From Streptomyces halstedii (lineage in GTDB: Bacteria > Actinomycetota > Actinomycetes > Streptomycetales > Streptomycetaceae), in assembly GCA_000720535.1 (NCBI GenBank), contig JOAZ01000004.1, forward strand, positions 186,001 to 250,000: DNA of 64,000 nt, given 5' to 3'. Positions 15,401 to 54,052 of the stretch are shown here, in pieces. The number at the start of each line of letters is the position of its first letter. The first letter of the stretch is position 1. Position numbers and translations under genes: made by a program. Below the pieces are notes generated by a model that worked only from the letters and a program-made list of their open reading frames with translations, was not told the DNA's origin and did no database searches.

Positions 15401-15490
15401 GAGCTCACCCCCACGAGTGGCGGGATTATCCACAACCAGCTGGTTATCCACCGGAATTGGCGCAGCTCAGCGCATTTCCGCAGGAGTGTC

Positions 15491-15496
15491 TAGCGT
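15491..15496 (+). promoter_or_regulatory. -10 hexamer for comEA-comEC
   Basis: TAGCGT lies 7 nt before ATG 15504, and a locally A/T-richer stretch (15420-15480) precedes it. This supports a leaderless start for the com operon. Confidence 0.45.
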
Positions 15497-15503
15497 CGGC
15501 GGC

Positions 15504-17195
15504 ATGACTCTCCGAACACTCCATGTATCCCGTCGTGTCGTCGCGGTCGTGAGCCCGGTCGGCGGCACCGCCGACCGGCCGGCTCGGCCTCAGGGCCGGC
15601 GCCTGCCGGATCCGGCGGCCCGCGCGCGGCCGGGGCCGGGTGTCGCTCCCGGCGGCGGGGCGGGCACGGGGCCCGGCGGCCGGCATGCCCGTCGACGCCG
15701 TCCGGCGCGCGCGCCGGACGCGGCGGCTTCACGGCTGCGCGCGGACGCACTGATGGCCGGGCTCCGCGCCGTCGGGGGATCGGACGCGGCGGTGGGTCCG
15801 GCGGCGCGGCCGGGCGGGGGCGATCCTGCCGCGGGCCCAGCCGGGGAGCCCTTGGTGGAGCCCTTGAGGGGGCCGTCCGCGTCTGGGAGGCCGTCCGCAC
15901 CTGGGAGATCGCCCGCGTCCGTGAGGCCGCCTGCGCACGTGGGGCCGCTGAGGGGCGTGCCACTGCCTGCGGGGGCGGAGGCGGGGGCGGCCGCCGGTGC
16001 GGGGGCCGGGGCGCGTAGGGGTGGGGGTGTGGACGTCGGGGGTGTCGGAGGTGGTGCCCGTGCGGACCTGGGTGCGGGAGCCGTGCCGGGGGTGGGCGGC
16101 CGAGCGGAAACGGGGGCACGGCAGGGGGCAGGAGGCGCGTCCGGTAGGGCGCGCGTTCCGGAGCTACGGGGAGAGCGCCCGGTCCCTTCATGGGCCTCCG
16201 CGGCGACATCCCTACCGAGGAGCGGCCCCGTTCCTGCCGGTGCCGAGGCCAGCTCCTATGCCCCTGCCCCTGCCCCTGCCCCTGCCGGTGCCGGTGCCAG
16301 TGCCCATGTTCACGCCGGCGCCGAGGCCAGTGCCCATGCCCCCGCCGGTGCCGGGCCTCGTCCCGGGACGGGGCTCAAGGCGGCTGAGCCGAGGGGGTCT
16401 GCCGGGCGGCGGCCGGTGTCTGGGCCCGAGATCCTGCCCACGGTGCCACCGCCACGACCGCGATGGTGGCGGTCGGTGGGCCCCGCCCTGCGCGACCGGT
16501 TACCGCTGTGGCTTCAGCTCCGATGCTCTCTGGAGCCGAAATCGCTGGCCGCGCTCGCCGTCGTCCTGGTCGGGGCGGCCGTCCTCGCCGGGGCGCACTT
16601 CTGGTCGGCCCGCCCTCAGACCGTGAGTGCCCCTGAGCGCGTGCGGGGGGCGGCCGCCGAAGCCCTGGTGCCCGCCATGGACTCCGGCGTCTCCGGTTCC
16701 CCCGGTTCCGGCCCCGGGGCGGCCGGAGGGGCCCCGGCCGTGGGTTCGGGCGGCCAGATCGTCGTCGATGTGAGTGGCAAGGTGCGCAGCCCCGGTATCC
16801 AGCGGCTGCCGTCGGGCTCACGGGTCGCCGACGCCCTGAGCGCCGCCGGGGGAGTGCGCAAGGGCGCCGACCTGACCGGGCTCAACCGGGCACGCGTCCT
16901 GATGGACGGCGAGCAGGTCGTCGTCGGCCTGCCAGGCGTGCAGCCCGCACCGGGCGGAACAGCGGGCGGCGGCCTCACGGGGACCGGTCAGGCGGGTCCT
17001 GCGGCGCCGCTGAGCCTGAACACCGCCACCCCCGAACAACTGGAGACCCTGCCCGGTGTCGGTCCGGTGCTCGCCCAGCACATCGTCGACTACCGCACCG
17101 AACACGGGGGTTACCGCTCCGTCGACGAACTGCGTGAGGTCAGCGGTATCGGTGACCGCCGGTTCGCGGACCTGCGCCCTCTGGTCGCGCCGTGA
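15504..17195 (+). CDS. comEA: ComEA-type DNA-binding protein with a large low-complexity arm
   Basis: 563 residues from ATG 15504; most ComEA proteins are much shorter. Order: an Ala/Gly/Pro/Arg-rich arm (about 1-330), a membrane helix (about 345-366, 'LAALAVVLVGAAVLAGAHFW'), a SLBB-type domain (about 418-480, 'VVDVSGKVRSPGIQRLPSG') and a double helix-hairpin-helix domain (503-563, 'NTATPEQLETLPGVGPVLAQ', 'VSGIGDRRFADL'). The HhH part should bind incoming DNA outside the membrane and feed ComEC. The arm includes hexanucleotide repeats near 16261-16284. Leu codon TTA at 16500-16502 predicts dependence on the bldA tRNA. comEC overlaps by 4 nt. Confidence 0.88.
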   Translation: MTLRTLHVSRRVVAVVSPVGGTADRPARPQGRRLPDPAARARPGPGVAPGGGAGTGPGGRHARRRRPARAPDAAASRLRADALMAGLRAVGGSDAAVGPAARPGGGDPAAGPAGEPLVEPLRGPSASGRPSAPGRSPASVRPPAHVGPLRGVPLPAGAEAGAAAGAGAGARRGGGVDVGGVGGGARADLGAGAVPGVGGRAETGARQGAGGASGRARVPELRGERPVPSWASAATSLPRSGPVPAGAEASSYAPAPAPAPAGAGASAHVHAGAEASAHAPAGAGPRPGTGLKAAEPRGSAGRRPVSGPEILPTVPPPRPRWWRSVGPALRDRLPLWLQLRCSLEPKSLAALAVVLVGAAVLAGAHFWSARPQTVSAPERVRGAAAEALVPAMDSGVSGSPGSGPGAAGGAPAVGSGGQIVVDVSGKVRSPGIQRLPSGSRVADALSAAGGVRKGADLTGLNRARVLMDGEQVVVGLPGVQPAPGGTAGGGLTGTGQAGPAAPLSLNTATPEQLETLPGVGPVLAQHIVDYRTEHGGYRSVDELREVSGIGDRRFADLRPLVAP

Positions 17196-19723
17196 GCGGC
17201 CCCGCTGTCCACACCGCCTCGGGACGGCGGCTGGGGGTGGCTGATCCGAGGCAGGAGGGGCCGCTCGACCTCAGGCTCGTCCCGCCCGCTCTGGCGGCCT
17301 GGGCCGCCACCGCACTCGCTCTGGACGCGCCGGGACGCTGGGTCGCCGTGGGTGTGGCGCTCGCCGCCTGTGCCGCCCTGGGCATCGTGGGCGGAACCTG
17401 GGCCGCCGGCAGGGTGGACCGGGCCCGGGGCCCCGGGCCCGGACGGGCCGGCGGCGGCGCACCGGCGTACAGATGGTGGCGCGGCACCGCCGCCGCCGGA
17501 GTGCTGCTCTGCGCGGCGGCCGGTGCGGCGGCCGCCGGGCTCCATGGAGCCGATGCCCGGAGCGGGCCCGTACCCGGCCTGGCCCAGAGCTTCGCCCGTG
17601 CCGACGCGGAGGTGACGGTCACGTCCGACCCCCGCAGGACCCGGCCGCAGATCACGGGAGATCACAGCATGCCCGCCTCCCTGCTCGTGGATGCCGAGGT
17701 CACCCGGCTCACCACCGCGGACGGTACCGTCACCCGGCTGCGCACCCCCGTGCTCCTCATGGTCACACCGGGCGAGGCGGCCGACCGGTGGCAACGGCTG
17801 CTGCCCACCACCGGGCTCCGGATCGGTGGACGGTTCGCACCGCCGCGGCACGAGGGCGAACGCATCGCGGCCGTGGTCCGCGCGGACGCGGGCGGGCCAC
17901 CCGAGGTGATCAGGGCACCCACCCTTGTGCAGCGCGTGGCGGGGAAGCTGCGGGCCGGTCTGCGCGAGGCCACCGACGGACTCGCGCCCGACGCGCGTGC
18001 GCTCCTGCCGGGGCTGGTCGTCGGTGACACCTCCCGGGTCACTCCCGAACTGGACGACGCCTTCAAAGCCACCGACCTCACGCACCTGCTGGCCGTCTCC
18101 GGGTCCAATCTGTCGATTCTGCTCTTCCTCCTCATCGGGCCCCCGGGGTCCGCCCTGCGCAGCGAACGCCGGGGCCTGGCACCGCGCCTGGGTCTCTCCC
18201 TGCGCCTGACCGCACTGACCGGAGGAGGTGTCGCGCTCGCCTTCGTGATCGTCTGCCGACCCGAGCCGAGTGTCCTGCGCGCGGCGGCCTGCGGACTGAT
18301 CACCCTGCTGGCCATCGGCACGGGCCGCCGGAGGTCGCTGATCCCCGCCCTGGCCGCGGCGGTCCTGCTGCTGGTGCTCTACGACCCGTGGCTGGCCCGA
18401 AGTTACGGCTTCCTGCTGTCCGTGCTGGCCACCGGTGCGCTGCTGACACTCGCCCCACGGTGGAGCGGTGCCCTGCAACGGCGCGGGGTCCCGCCGGGAC
18501 TCGCCGAGGTGCTGGCCGCGGCCGGGGCCGCCCAGGCGGTCTGCGCCCCGGTGGTCGTCGTCCTCGCCTCACGGGTGAGCCTGGTGGCGATCCCCTGCAA
18601 TCTGCTCGCGGAGTTCGCCGTCGCGCCCGCCACCGTCCTGGGTTTCGCGGCGCTCGCCGTGGCCCCGGTGTCGATACCGGCGGCGCAGACCCTGGCCACG
18701 GTCGCCGGCTGGCCGGCCGGGTGGATCGCCACGGTCGCCCGTACCGGAGCATCCTTGCCCGGCGCCCAGGCCGACTGGCCCGGCGGGTGGCAGGGGGCAG
18801 GACTGCTGGCCGCCGTCACCGTCGTCCTGGTGCTGTCCGCCCGCCGCCTGGCCCGCCACCCCTGGGTCTGCTCGGCGGCCGCGCTGCTCCTGGTCCTCGC
18901 GGTGCTGAGGCCCGTGCCGCTCACCAGGATCATGAGCGGGTGGCCTCCGCCGGGCTGGGCGTTCGCGCTGTGCGACGTGGGGCAGGGAGACGCCATGGTG
19001 CTCGCGGCCGGACAGGGGAGCGGAGTCGTCGTGGACACCGGCCCCGACCCCCGGCCCGTCGACCGGTGCCTGCGTGAACTCGGCATCACGCGGGTGCCGC
19101 TCCTGGTGCTGACGCACTTCCACGCCGACCATGTGCGGGGTCTGCCGGGGGTGTTACGGGGACGCGAGGTCGGCGCCGTCCAGACGACGAGCCTGCGGAA
19201 ACCGGCCGAGCAGGCGGCGTTCGTGAGGCGTACCGCCGCCGAGGCGCACGTCCCCGTCGTGCCGGCCGTGCCGGGGGAGCGCCGCCGGCTCGGGCCCCTC
19301 GACTGGCAGGTGCTCTGGCCCGCACCTCAGGTGGCGGGCGCGCCACCGTACTTCCTGACGGAGCCCAACGACTCCAGCCTCACCCTGTTCGTGCGGTCGG
19401 GTGCGCTGACCCTGCTGCTCCTCGGCGACCTGGAACCCCCCGCCCAGCAAGGGGTCCTGCGCAGATACCCGGCGCTGCCCCGGGTGGACGTCCTCAAGGT
19501 GGCGCACCACGGCTCCGCCTACCAGGACGCCGGACTCCTGCGCACCGCCCACCCCAGGCTCGCGGTCATCAGCTGCGGCACCGACAATCCCTACGGCCAT
19601 CCGGCGGCCCGGACGGTCGAGGCACTCACGGCGTCGGGAGCACGGGTGTTGCGTACGGACATCGACGGGGCGATCGCGGTGTCCGGTGCCGGGGCCGGGC
19701 TGCGCGCGGTGGGCCGTTCATGA
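17192..19723 (+). CDS. comEC: ComEC/Rec2 DNA-uptake channel protein
   Basis: 843 residues from GTG 17192, overlapping the comEA stop as GTGA (translational coupling). N-terminal helices and an outer OB-type domain (about 1-230) are followed by the competence membrane domain with 'ATDLTHLLAVSGSNLSILLF' and many hydrophobic helices (about 290-580). The C-terminal metallo-beta-lactamase domain has 'LTHFHADHVRG' and 'VLKVAHHGSAYQ'. The domain is thought to degrade one strand of incoming DNA. The Leu codon at 19154-19156 is TTA, as in comEA. Streptomyces is not known for natural competence, so the role here (DNA uptake, recycling or another transport) is open. Confidence 0.95.
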   Translation: MSGPAVHTASGRRLGVADPRQEGPLDLRLVPPALAAWAATALALDAPGRWVAVGVALAACAALGIVGGTWAAGRVDRARGPGPGRAGGGAPAYRWWRGTAAAGVLLCAAAGAAAAGLHGADARSGPVPGLAQSFARADAEVTVTSDPRRTRPQITGDHSMPASLLVDAEVTRLTTADGTVTRLRTPVLLMVTPGEAADRWQRLLPTTGLRIGGRFAPPRHEGERIAAVVRADAGGPPEVIRAPTLVQRVAGKLRAGLREATDGLAPDARALLPGLVVGDTSRVTPELDDAFKATDLTHLLAVSGSNLSILLFLLIGPPGSALRSERRGLAPRLGLSLRLTALTGGGVALAFVIVCRPEPSVLRAAACGLITLLAIGTGRRRSLIPALAAAVLLLVLYDPWLARSYGFLLSVLATGALLTLAPRWSGALQRRGVPPGLAEVLAAAGAAQAVCAPVVVVLASRVSLVAIPCNLLAEFAVAPATVLGFAALAVAPVSIPAAQTLATVAGWPAGWIATVARTGASLPGAQADWPGGWQGAGLLAAVTVVLVLSARRLARHPWVCSAAALLLVLAVLRPVPLTRIMSGWPPPGWAFALCDVGQGDAMVLAAGQGSGVVVDTGPDPRPVDRCLRELGITRVPLLVLTHFHADHVRGLPGVLRGREVGAVQTTSLRKPAEQAAFVRRTAAEAHVPVVPAVPGERRRLGPLDWQVLWPAPQVAGAPPYFLTEPNDSSLTLFVRSGALTLLLLGDLEPPAQQGVLRRYPALPRVDVLKVAHHGSAYQDAGLLRTAHPRLAVISCGTDNPYGHPAARTVEALTASGARVLRTDIDGAIAVSGAGAGLRAVGRS

Positions 19724-48635: not shown

Positions 48636-50657
<2,022 letters not shown>

Positions 50658-51943: not shown

Positions 51944-54052
51944 ATGGGGGCCGAAACAGACATGAGCGGTACGCGGCCACGAGGGGCGGGGGCGCGGCGA
52001 AGACTGCCCTGGCTGGTCGTGGCCCTCTGGGTCGTGCTGCTCGCGGTCGCCGCGCCGTTCGCGGGCAAGCTCGGGGACGTACAGAGCGACCGCGCCGTGG
52101 ACTACCTGCCGACGAACGCGGACTCCACCCAGGTCGCGAAGATCCAGGACACCCTGCCCGGCGGCGAGTCCACCGACCTCGTCCTCGTCTACCACCGGGA
52201 CGGCGGGCTGACCACCGCCGACCGGGCCACGGCCGACGAGCGGGTGGCCGCGATCGCCCGTGAGCACCCGCTGTCCGCCCGGCCCGAGGGCATCGGGTCG
52301 AAGGACGGCACGACCGTGATGTACCCGCTCTCCACGACCGAGCCGGGCCAGGACGACGAGGCCAGGACCGCGTTCGTCAAGGACGTGCGGGAGAACGTCG
52401 GCGGGGGCGGCGGGCTCGACGTCCGGGTCGGCGGACCGGGAGCGATGAACACCGACTCCATGGAGGTGTACAGCTCCCTGGACGGCCCGCTGCTCTACAC
52501 CACGGTCGCCGTCGTCGCGATCCTGCTGATCCTGATCTACCGCAGCCCGTTCCTGTGGCTGGTGCCCCTGGTCGTCGCGGGCCTCGCCGACCTGCTGTCC
52601 ATGGCGGTGGTCTACGGGCTCCACCAGGGCTTCGGCACCACCGTCAGCAGCCAGAGCGCGGCGGTGATGACCATCCTGGTCTTCGGCGCGGGAACCGACT
52701 ACGCCCTGCTGCTCGTCGCCCGCTACCGCGAGGAACTGACCCGCCGCGCCCTCCCCCTGGACGCGATGACCGCCGCGTTACGCGGCTGCGGGCCGGCCGT
52801 CGTCGCCTCCTCCGGCACCGTCGCCGCCGGTCTGCTGTGCCTGCTCGCCGCGGACCTCAACAGCAGCCGGGGCATGGGGCCCATCGCCGCCGTCGGCGTG
52901 CTGAGCGCCCTCCTCGCGATGACCACCCTGCTGCCGGCGGTCCTCGTCCTCCTCGGCCGCCGCGTCTTCTGGCCGCTGGTGCCCGCGTACGGGCAGGAGC
53001 CCCGCAAGCGCCGCTCGGTCTTCGCCGCCATGGGCGGTGTCGCCGGGCGCAGGCCGGTGGCCGTGCTGGTCACCGGGGGCGTCGCGCTGGGCGCCCTGGC
53101 CCTGGGGATGTTCAGCCTGCCCGGAGAGCTCAAGCTGGAGGACTCCTTCACCAGCAGGCCGGAGTCGATCGTGGCGATGGAGACACTCGCCACCGCCTAC
53201 CCCGAGCGCTCCAGCCAGCCGGTCACGGTGATCACCCCCACCGGGCGGGCCGACGAGACCCTGGCCGAGGTACGCGGCATCCGGGGCGTCGCCGGTGCCG
53301 AGCGCGTCCGCGACGGCGGCGGCTGGACCGAACTCGCCGTCACCGCCCAGGACCTGCCCGAGTCGGCGGGGGAGCGGGCCACCGTCCAGGCCCTGCGCGA
53401 CGGGCTCGACGGCAGCCACGTCGGCGGACCCACCGCCCAGCAGATGGACCTGGAGAAGACCAACAGCCGCGATCTGAGGGCCGTCGTCCCGCTTGTCGTG
53501 GTCGCCGTCCTGCTGATCCTGATCGTGCTGCTGCGCAGCCTCGTCGCCCCGCTGCTGCTCGTGGCCGCCGTCGTCGCGGTCTGGGCGGCGTCGCTCGGGA
53601 TCGCGGGCCTCGTCTTCGAACCGGTCCTCGGCGCGAAGGGCACCGACCCGGGGCTGCCGCTGCTGTCCTTCGTCTTCCTGGTGGCGCTCGGCGTCGACTA
53701 CGGCATCTTCCTGATGCACCGGGTGCGGGAGGAGACCCTGGCCGGAGCGGAGCCCACGAACGCGGCACTGACCGCGCTGCGCACCACCGGCGGTGTCATC
53801 GCCTCGGCCGGACTGGTGCTCGCGGCGACCTTCTCCGTCCTCATGAACATGCCGATGACGAATCTGCTGGAACTGGGCTTCGTGGTCGCCGTCGGTGTGC
53901 TCCTGGACACCTTCCTGGTACGCACGTACCTGGTGACCTCGGCCAGTGTCGCCCTGGGACGCCGGATCTGGTGGCCGGGGGCGCTCAGCCGCCGCCCCCA
54001 GGACGAGGACCGCGCCCGGAAGGACGGGGCGGACCTCATGGCGACCCGCTGA
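51944..54052 (+). CDS. MMPL/RND-family membrane transporter
   Basis: 702 residues from ATG 51944 with GAGGGGAGGG upstream; ATG 51962 is possible. Two halves, each one helix, an outer domain and five helices: 'WLVVALWVVLLAVAAPFAGK' ... 'VFGAGTDYALLLVARYREEL' and 'PLVVVAVLLILIVLL' ... 'FLVALGVDYGIFLMHRVREE'. The paired G-x3-D-Y motifs carry the proton-relay Asp/Tyr. Such proteins export lipids or drugs. One Leu codon (52778-52780) is TTA, predicting bldA dependence. The gene stands alone behind an operator-like palindrome. Confidence 0.92.
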   Translation: MGAETDMSGTRPRGAGARRRLPWLVVALWVVLLAVAAPFAGKLGDVQSDRAVDYLPTNADSTQVAKIQDTLPGGESTDLVLVYHRDGGLTTADRATADERVAAIAREHPLSARPEGIGSKDGTTVMYPLSTTEPGQDDEARTAFVKDVRENVGGGGGLDVRVGGPGAMNTDSMEVYSSLDGPLLYTTVAVVAILLILIYRSPFLWLVPLVVAGLADLLSMAVVYGLHQGFGTTVSSQSAAVMTILVFGAGTDYALLLVARYREELTRRALPLDAMTAALRGCGPAVVASSGTVAAGLLCLLAADLNSSRGMGPIAAVGVLSALLAMTTLLPAVLVLLGRRVFWPLVPAYGQEPRKRRSVFAAMGGVAGRRPVAVLVTGGVALGALALGMFSLPGELKLEDSFTSRPESIVAMETLATAYPERSSQPVTVITPTGRADETLAEVRGIRGVAGAERVRDGGGWTELAVTAQDLPESAGERATVQALRDGLDGSHVGGPTAQQMDLEKTNSRDLRAVVPLVVVAVLLILIVLLRSLVAPLLLVAAVVAVWAASLGIAGLVFEPVLGAKGTDPGLPLLSFVFLVALGVDYGIFLMHRVREETLAGAEPTNAALTALRTTGGVIASAGLVLAATFSVLMNMPMTNLLELGFVVAVGVLLDTFLVRTYLVTSASVALGRRIWWPGALSRRPQDEDRARKDGADLMATR

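Follow-up and report, generated by a model that had tools for sequence, protein, structure and literature searches.

A conserved paired motif before DNA-uptake and DNA-processing genes suggests a hidden, co-regulated DNA-uptake system in Streptomyces

The 64,000-nucleotide stretch of Streptomyces halstedii DNA analyzed here (referred to below as the window) comes from a 7.74-Mb genome assembled in 105 contigs and encodes ComEA, with HHH and SLBB domains, and ComEC, with Competence and metallo-beta-lactamase domains, as expected of a competence operon (Table 1). The start of comEC overlaps the comEA stop codon. The whole-protein models TIGR01259 (ComEA) and TIGR00361 matched below their cut-offs. 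The likely partners of this operon encoded in the same genome include DprA (PF02481), YraN and ComM (both recognized by eye), and secretion or pilus ATPases of the PF00437 family (three matches).

Table 1. Features of the comEA-comEC locus and of the yraN-comM-dprA genes of the same genome. Coordinates are window positions, except for those on contig C27.
Feature	Coordinates	Strand	Remarks
Element flank CGAGTGGCGGGA	15414..15425	+	G.GTG block
Box 1, TTATCCACA	15426..15434	+	DnaA-box-like
Box 2, TTATCCACC	15444..15452	+	direct repeat of box 1, 18 bp after it
TAGCGT	15491..15496	+	possible -10 element, 13 bp before start codon
comEA	15504..17195	+	563 aa; PF12836 (HHH_3), PF10531 (SLBB); start placed from its context
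TTA codon of comEA	16500..16502	+	codon 333 of 563, in frame
comEC	17192..19723	+	843 aa; PF03772 (E 3.5e-38), PF00753 (Lactamase_B, E 1e-12)
TTA codon of comEC	19154..19156	+	codon 655 of 843, in frame
yraN	C27:60346-60705		recognized by eye
comM	C27:60705-62324		recognized by eye
dprA	C27:62308-63591		ORF; PF02481

The mechanically delimited comEA ORF opens at 15417, upstream of the ATG at 15504. This ATG is the most likely start codon, because a block resembling CTA(G/C)CGTC, visible by eye in many of the upstream regions compared, often runs into an ATG at that place. The short distance between TAGCGT and the start codon makes it likely that the comEA mRNA is leaderless.

The region between the two candidate starts contains a tandem element that spans positions 15426 to 15452, about 80 bp before the comEA start codon, and is preceded by the G.GTG flank. 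In the entire genome, the pattern TTATCCAC-N(7-13)-TTATCCAC occurs only once. Of 144 Streptomyces loci, 122 had enough upstream sequence to be testable, and all 122 comEA upstream regions match the element in at least 11 of its 14 fixed positions (120 of them in at least 12). The same threshold was reached by 4 of the 122 antisense controls and upstream of holA (4/125), YceI (1/72), and degV (2/124); both degV matches represent the comEA element itself, in two loci that were cut inside degV.

Tandem boxes were also recognized, with a slightly looser regular expression, in 14 of 20 loci from other genera of the family. Among 20 loci from 12 other families of the class (two with less than 650 bp of upstream sequence), 15 have TCCACAG in the 650 bp preceding the comEA match, compared with 2 on the antisense strand. 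The adjacent 650 bp farther upstream contain it in 0 of 18 loci, and windows inside comEC in 1 of 40. The distance of the best comEA match from comEC is 2.7-3.6 kb in three of the 20 loci (L253, L270, and L271). Six loci of other actinomycete families (L253, L254, L256, L260, L269, and L270) have two TCCACAG copies before comEA that are 26-29 bp apart, versus 18 bp in the window, a spacing that would correspond to roughly one additional helical turn.

Box 1 of the window is identical to the high-affinity DnaA box of Escherichia coli and Bacillus subtilis, TTATCCACA, as tabulated in PMC4285127, which gives TTGTCCACA for Streptomyces coelicolor. The DnaA-box 9-mer TTNTCCACA is matched exactly by box 1 in 98 of the 122 loci. 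A perfect copy of the AdpA consensus, as quoted in PMC4285127, is present at 15418-15427 (TGGCGGGATT) and overlaps the start of box 1. Its interpretation as an AdpA site was set aside: the scan for it covered the upstream region of the window, and the bases preferred here in the other loci are for the most part at odds with the consensus. No description of the tandem element upstream of comEA was found in the titles and opening abstract lines of the literature on Streptomyces comEA/comEC, on DnaA and comEA, and on TTA codons in comEA, a collection with few subscription papers.

Tested as a prediction in the same genome, the element was found at C27:60263-60288, where it matches 13 of the 14 positions and lies 83 bp before yraN, the first gene of yraN-comM-dprA, and some 2.4 kb upstream of dprA. 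The best antisense score in this stretch was 10. This copy reads ATATCCACA, which is not a strict DnaA box. Three T2SSE loci of the genome and the region directly at its dprA gene lack TTNTCCACA; a single TCCACAG (in L229) was detected among the T2SSE and dprA loci scanned.

A search of 121 Streptomyces genomes for TTATCCACA-N9-TNNTCCAC produced 90 matches in 54 genomes, and a reversed control pattern produced none. Twenty-eight matches, in 28 genomes, are within 7 kb of comEC. The remaining 62, in 39 genomes, include a few from genomes in which comEC was unfound or fragmentary (G028, G050, and G073). Of these, 34 sites from 24 genomes were retrieved, a non-random selection based on the quality of their contigs, their spread and, in three cases, shared sequence. 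Fifteen sites, each in a different genome, precede yraN with comM next to it; motifs of both proteins are seen in all 15 stretches, which end before any dprA, and the assignments in L276 were confirmed by the PF02021, NCBIfam YraN, and YifB models. Three sites precede RcpC/CpaB-like Flp-pilus proteins (E-value 5e-7 in L274, above the cut-off; 6e-5 in L293 and 2e-5 in L295, below it), and the protein downstream of the L300 site resembles these by eye. Two sites precede M23 peptidases (L283 and L285), and one precedes an SSB gene that starts 280 bp downstream (L289). Without L300, these groups comprise 21 of the 34 sites, 15 of which represent a single operon; the other 13 precede different genes or, in L291, L294, L297, and L299, genes with no clear assignment. 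The G.GTG flank is found before box 1 in 112 of the 122 comEA elements, all 15 yraN elements, and 9 of the 19 other elements. In several genomes, the element is placed before functionally linked genes (comEA, yraN-comM(-dprA), SSB, RcpC/CpaB-like, and M23 genes), a set that can be read as a candidate competence regulon.

Other genes with the tandem box in front encode S9 peptidases (tested in L282, assigned by eye in L273 and L275), amino acid permeases (L292, tested; L307, by eye), and SUKH-domain proteins (L279, tested; L301, by eye), each kind in two or three genomes, and an M24 peptidase (L298).

The original prediction for this locus concerned the TTA codons of comEA and comEC, which were taken to tie DNA uptake to bldA. 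The letters and both reading frames were confirmed, and the claim of one further TTA in the window agrees with the count of three TTAs in real genes. The other in-frame TTAs among the 51 GC3-selected ORFs of the window are located at 52778, in an MMPL-like gene (named by eye), and at 48762, upstream of where its gene probably starts (judged by eye). The ORF opening at 15417 has two more TTAs, both upstream of the ATG at 15504; counted from 15417, the comEA TTA would be codon 362. Both operon codons sit late in their genes, unlike the 5'-biased streptomycete TTA codons described in PMC4255298. A tRNA-Leu with the anticodon TAA (UUA-reading, bldA-type) is encoded in the genome at G000:C2:274267-274350 (L218). 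In 464 kb of this genome, in-frame TTAs occur in 14 of 299 ORFs and in 10 of the 85 ORFs with GC3 below 0.90 (the sample includes comEC; comEA failed its GC3 rule), so two TTA-containing neighbors in a weakly biased operon are uncommon but not extraordinary. The dprA gene of the same genome has an in-frame TTA as well (G000:C27:62620, L288; codon 68 from the likely Met), and yraN and comM have none. In a small post hoc test on one genome, the presence of TTA in 3 of 5 com-type genes differs from its presence in 10 of the 85 weakly biased ORFs with a p value of 0.014.

Comparison across Streptomyces relied on 54 loci from a scan of GTDB contigs and on regions of genomes found by search, from which 9 duplicates and the distant L056 were removed, leaving 144 distinct comEC loci, 139 of them with comEA. 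TTA codons were found in 30 of 139 comEA genes and 26 of 144 comEC genes; the neighboring leuS (0/119), degV (0/122), holA (0/113), and YceI (3/66) genes had few or none. At least one of the two genes contains TTA in 47 of 139 loci: both genes in 8, comEA only in 22, and comEC only in 17, with neither in 92. The co-occurrence is not above expectation in these 139 loci (Fisher p 0.18), so the idea that the pairing of the two codons is itself telling had to be abandoned. The comEA site of the window has TTA in 11 of 139 loci, and four other comEA sites recur in 7, 4, 3, and 3 loci. On a FastTree tree of comEC, on which trait changes were counted, the 30 comEA carriers require 14 changes and therefore cluster in clades, whereas the 26 comEC carriers require 23 and are scattered; the two carriers of the comEC site of the window (2/144) are far apart. 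With clades read from the tree by eye, comEA TTAs are present in 21 of the 38 comEA-bearing loci of the 41-row clade that includes the window; a 52-row clade has them in 0 of 51 such loci, and the 50 loci outside both clades include 9 carriers.

Among the matches listed, comEC was detected in 116 of 121 genomes of the genus and 121 of 121 genomes of the family (234 distinct genomes), and at least 6 genomes have the gene interrupted by a large insert. In five of them (G031, G092, G127, G168, and G228; L219-L225), inserts of 6.8-26 kb occupy the same place, corresponding to codons 642-644 of the window gene (near 19118), in the THFHADH metallo-beta-lactamase motif. Each of these inserts opens with a similar recombinase operon and carries variable cargo. 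PF00589 exceeds its cut-off in G092 and G127 and falls short of it in G228 and G168; G031 has no match. Most proteins of the recombinase operon have weak or no matches in Pfam and NCBIfam, and the inserts were therefore assigned to no transposon family. Homologs of the first recombinase are encoded in 6 of 121 Streptomyces genomes, in 2 of them within comEC. A TGTCTCA(TGAGACA)-like sequence is seen near the ends of the five elements. In the sixth genome, G056 (L226 and L227), an insert of ~44 kb lies near codon 772 and the HHGS motif (window equivalent near 19505), with a serine integrase (PF00239, PF07508) beside comEC, which marks a second target site in this gene. Insertion of mobile genetic elements into com genes, including pneumococcal comEC, is described in PMC4774983 and PMC11472951; in contrast to those cases, Streptomyces comEC is hit by two kinds of recombinases at two sites. 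The word Streptomyces does not occur in either text.

The TTA codons could be neutral, with rare codons gathering by drift in weakly codon-biased genes and bldA having no special role in the operon, a possibility to be taken seriously even if it falls slightly short of an even call. The GC3 values of comEA (0.866) and comEC (0.870) are below those of degV, holA, and leuS (0.91-0.97), the TTA:CTA ratio of comEC (32:122) matches that of the 464-kb genome sample (14:53), and the comEC sites other than that of the window are mostly singletons. Other rare codons also persist: in a 13-row clade that includes the window, 8 of 12 species retain the comEA TTA, and 9 of 286 comEC rare-codon entries are kept in at least 8 as well, so that persistence was rejected as proof of selection. 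Drift does not readily explain why, at a GC3 like that of comEC, comEA has more TTA than CTA (30:17). Column-wise, 16 TTA and 17 CTA changes are counted on the tree for comEA versus 30 and 105 for comEC (Fisher p 0.004, in a test devised after the data were seen, with changes that are not fully independent events). The rarity of comEA TTAs outside the genus (1 of 20 loci in other genera of the family and 0 of 20 in other families) and the TTA in dprA likewise speak against neutrality. Given the clustering and enrichment in comEA and the scatter in comEC, the bldA idea is modestly supported for comEA and unsupported for the comEC site, where the TTA is probably incidental. What stands of the proposed bldA tie are the codons themselves, the bldA-type tRNA, the clade-shared comEA TTAs, and the dprA TTA; the unconserved comEC codon, its genome-like codon ratio, and the 52-row clade free of comEA TTAs weigh against it. 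The central point was in print as early as 2013, since SCO2567;2568, named "Competence operon," appears in Table 2 of PMC4255298 as often having TTA codons (3/11 and 5/13 Streptomyces genomes); that paper also notes a TTA in 25860 of Kitasatospora setae. To that entry, the present set adds 139-144 loci, codon positions, a tree, a codon-usage control, and the lack of conservation of the comEC site. The TTA part alone adds little to the 2013 publication, and the shared promoter element now carries more of the case for tying DNA uptake to a regulated program than the TTA codons do.

That element, in turn, might be an ordinary DnaA-binding or titration site that marks replication-linked control and not competence, which we consider rather unlikely. 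The identity of box 1 with tabulated DnaA boxes (PMC4285127) and the occurrence of the pattern before non-com genes would fit such a site. DnaA-regulated promoters have TTNTCCACA boxes upstream of gene starts as well (reviewed in PMC8203912). However, the comEA boxes differ from those promoters in forming a fixed tandem with a G.GTG flank, which is common to comEA and yraN and lies outside any DnaA box, and 21 of the 34 sites away from comEC precede yraN-comM, SSB, Flp-pilus-like, or M23 genes, albeit 15 of them represent one operon. The text of the review mentions neither competence nor comEA nor DNA uptake. It is similarly doubtful, in our view, that ComEA and ComEC import DNA for nutrition or repair, or have some other role apart from transformation, with the recombination genes sharing the promoter for the sake of repair. 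To our knowledge, natural transformation has been established for no Streptomyces species, which would be in line with such a role. According to PMC9500057, deletion of comEA/comEC in L-forms of Kitasatospora viridifaciens left DNA uptake unchanged, and walled cells took up no DNA. On the other hand, ComEA, ComEC, ComM, DprA, SSB, the Flp pilus, and M23 peptidases match the uptake and processing steps of transformation, and the insertions in comEC recall those in competence genes elsewhere (PMC4774983). In the actinobacterium Micrococcus luteus, with which Streptomyces shares ComEA/ComEC, DprA, and Flp (Tad) pili, transformation depends on the Flp (tad) genes and on comEC (PMC4322843); the regulation in M. 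luteus was left by the authors of that study to be unravelled, whereas the Streptomyces set gains a candidate shared promoter element.

The explanation that we favor, and hold to be somewhat better than an even call when taken as a whole, is that comEA-comEC is a DNA-uptake operon belonging to a small co-regulated set of Streptomyces genes. Its promoter contains a direct pair of TTNTCCACA-type boxes, spaced 18 bp apart and preceded by a GGGTG-type flank, and would be recognized by a regulator that binds the tandem boxes. Judging by sequence, DnaA is the leading candidate for this regulator, as it fits the 9-mer; a dedicated competence regulator is the alternative, which the shared flank and the set of genes would accommodate. 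The same regulator would act on comEA-comEC together with yraN-comM-dprA, to which some species add SSB, Flp-pilus, and M23 peptidase genes. In the clade of the window, the comEA TTA probably brings in the bldA tRNA as a second requirement, at the level of translation, and since the comEC start lies within the comEA stop codon, stalled translation of comEA could reduce comEC too. Counted against this explanation are the 13 of 34 sites before other or unclear genes, the non-random choice of those 34, the ATATCCACA box of yraN in the genome of the window, the lack of TTNTCCACA at its T2SSE loci, the persistence of other rare codons alongside the comEA TTA, and the unchanged DNA uptake of K. viridifaciens L-forms after comEA/comEC deletion.

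A stronger version, which is tentative and in our estimate not quite an even call, would be a true competence regulon, in which a single regulator, through tandem TTATCCACA boxes, turns on a Flp pilus, a wall hydrolase, ComEA/ComEC, SSB, ComM, and DprA together, with some lineages adding a bldA gate through the TTAs of comEA and dprA. Such a regulon would place natural transformation at a stage that has so far not been assayed in Streptomyces, the maker of many useful antibiotics. The shared promoter element points to the genes, to the bases worth mutating, and to a bait for pulling down the regulator, and this direct handle turns the question of streptomycete competence into a defined experiment.
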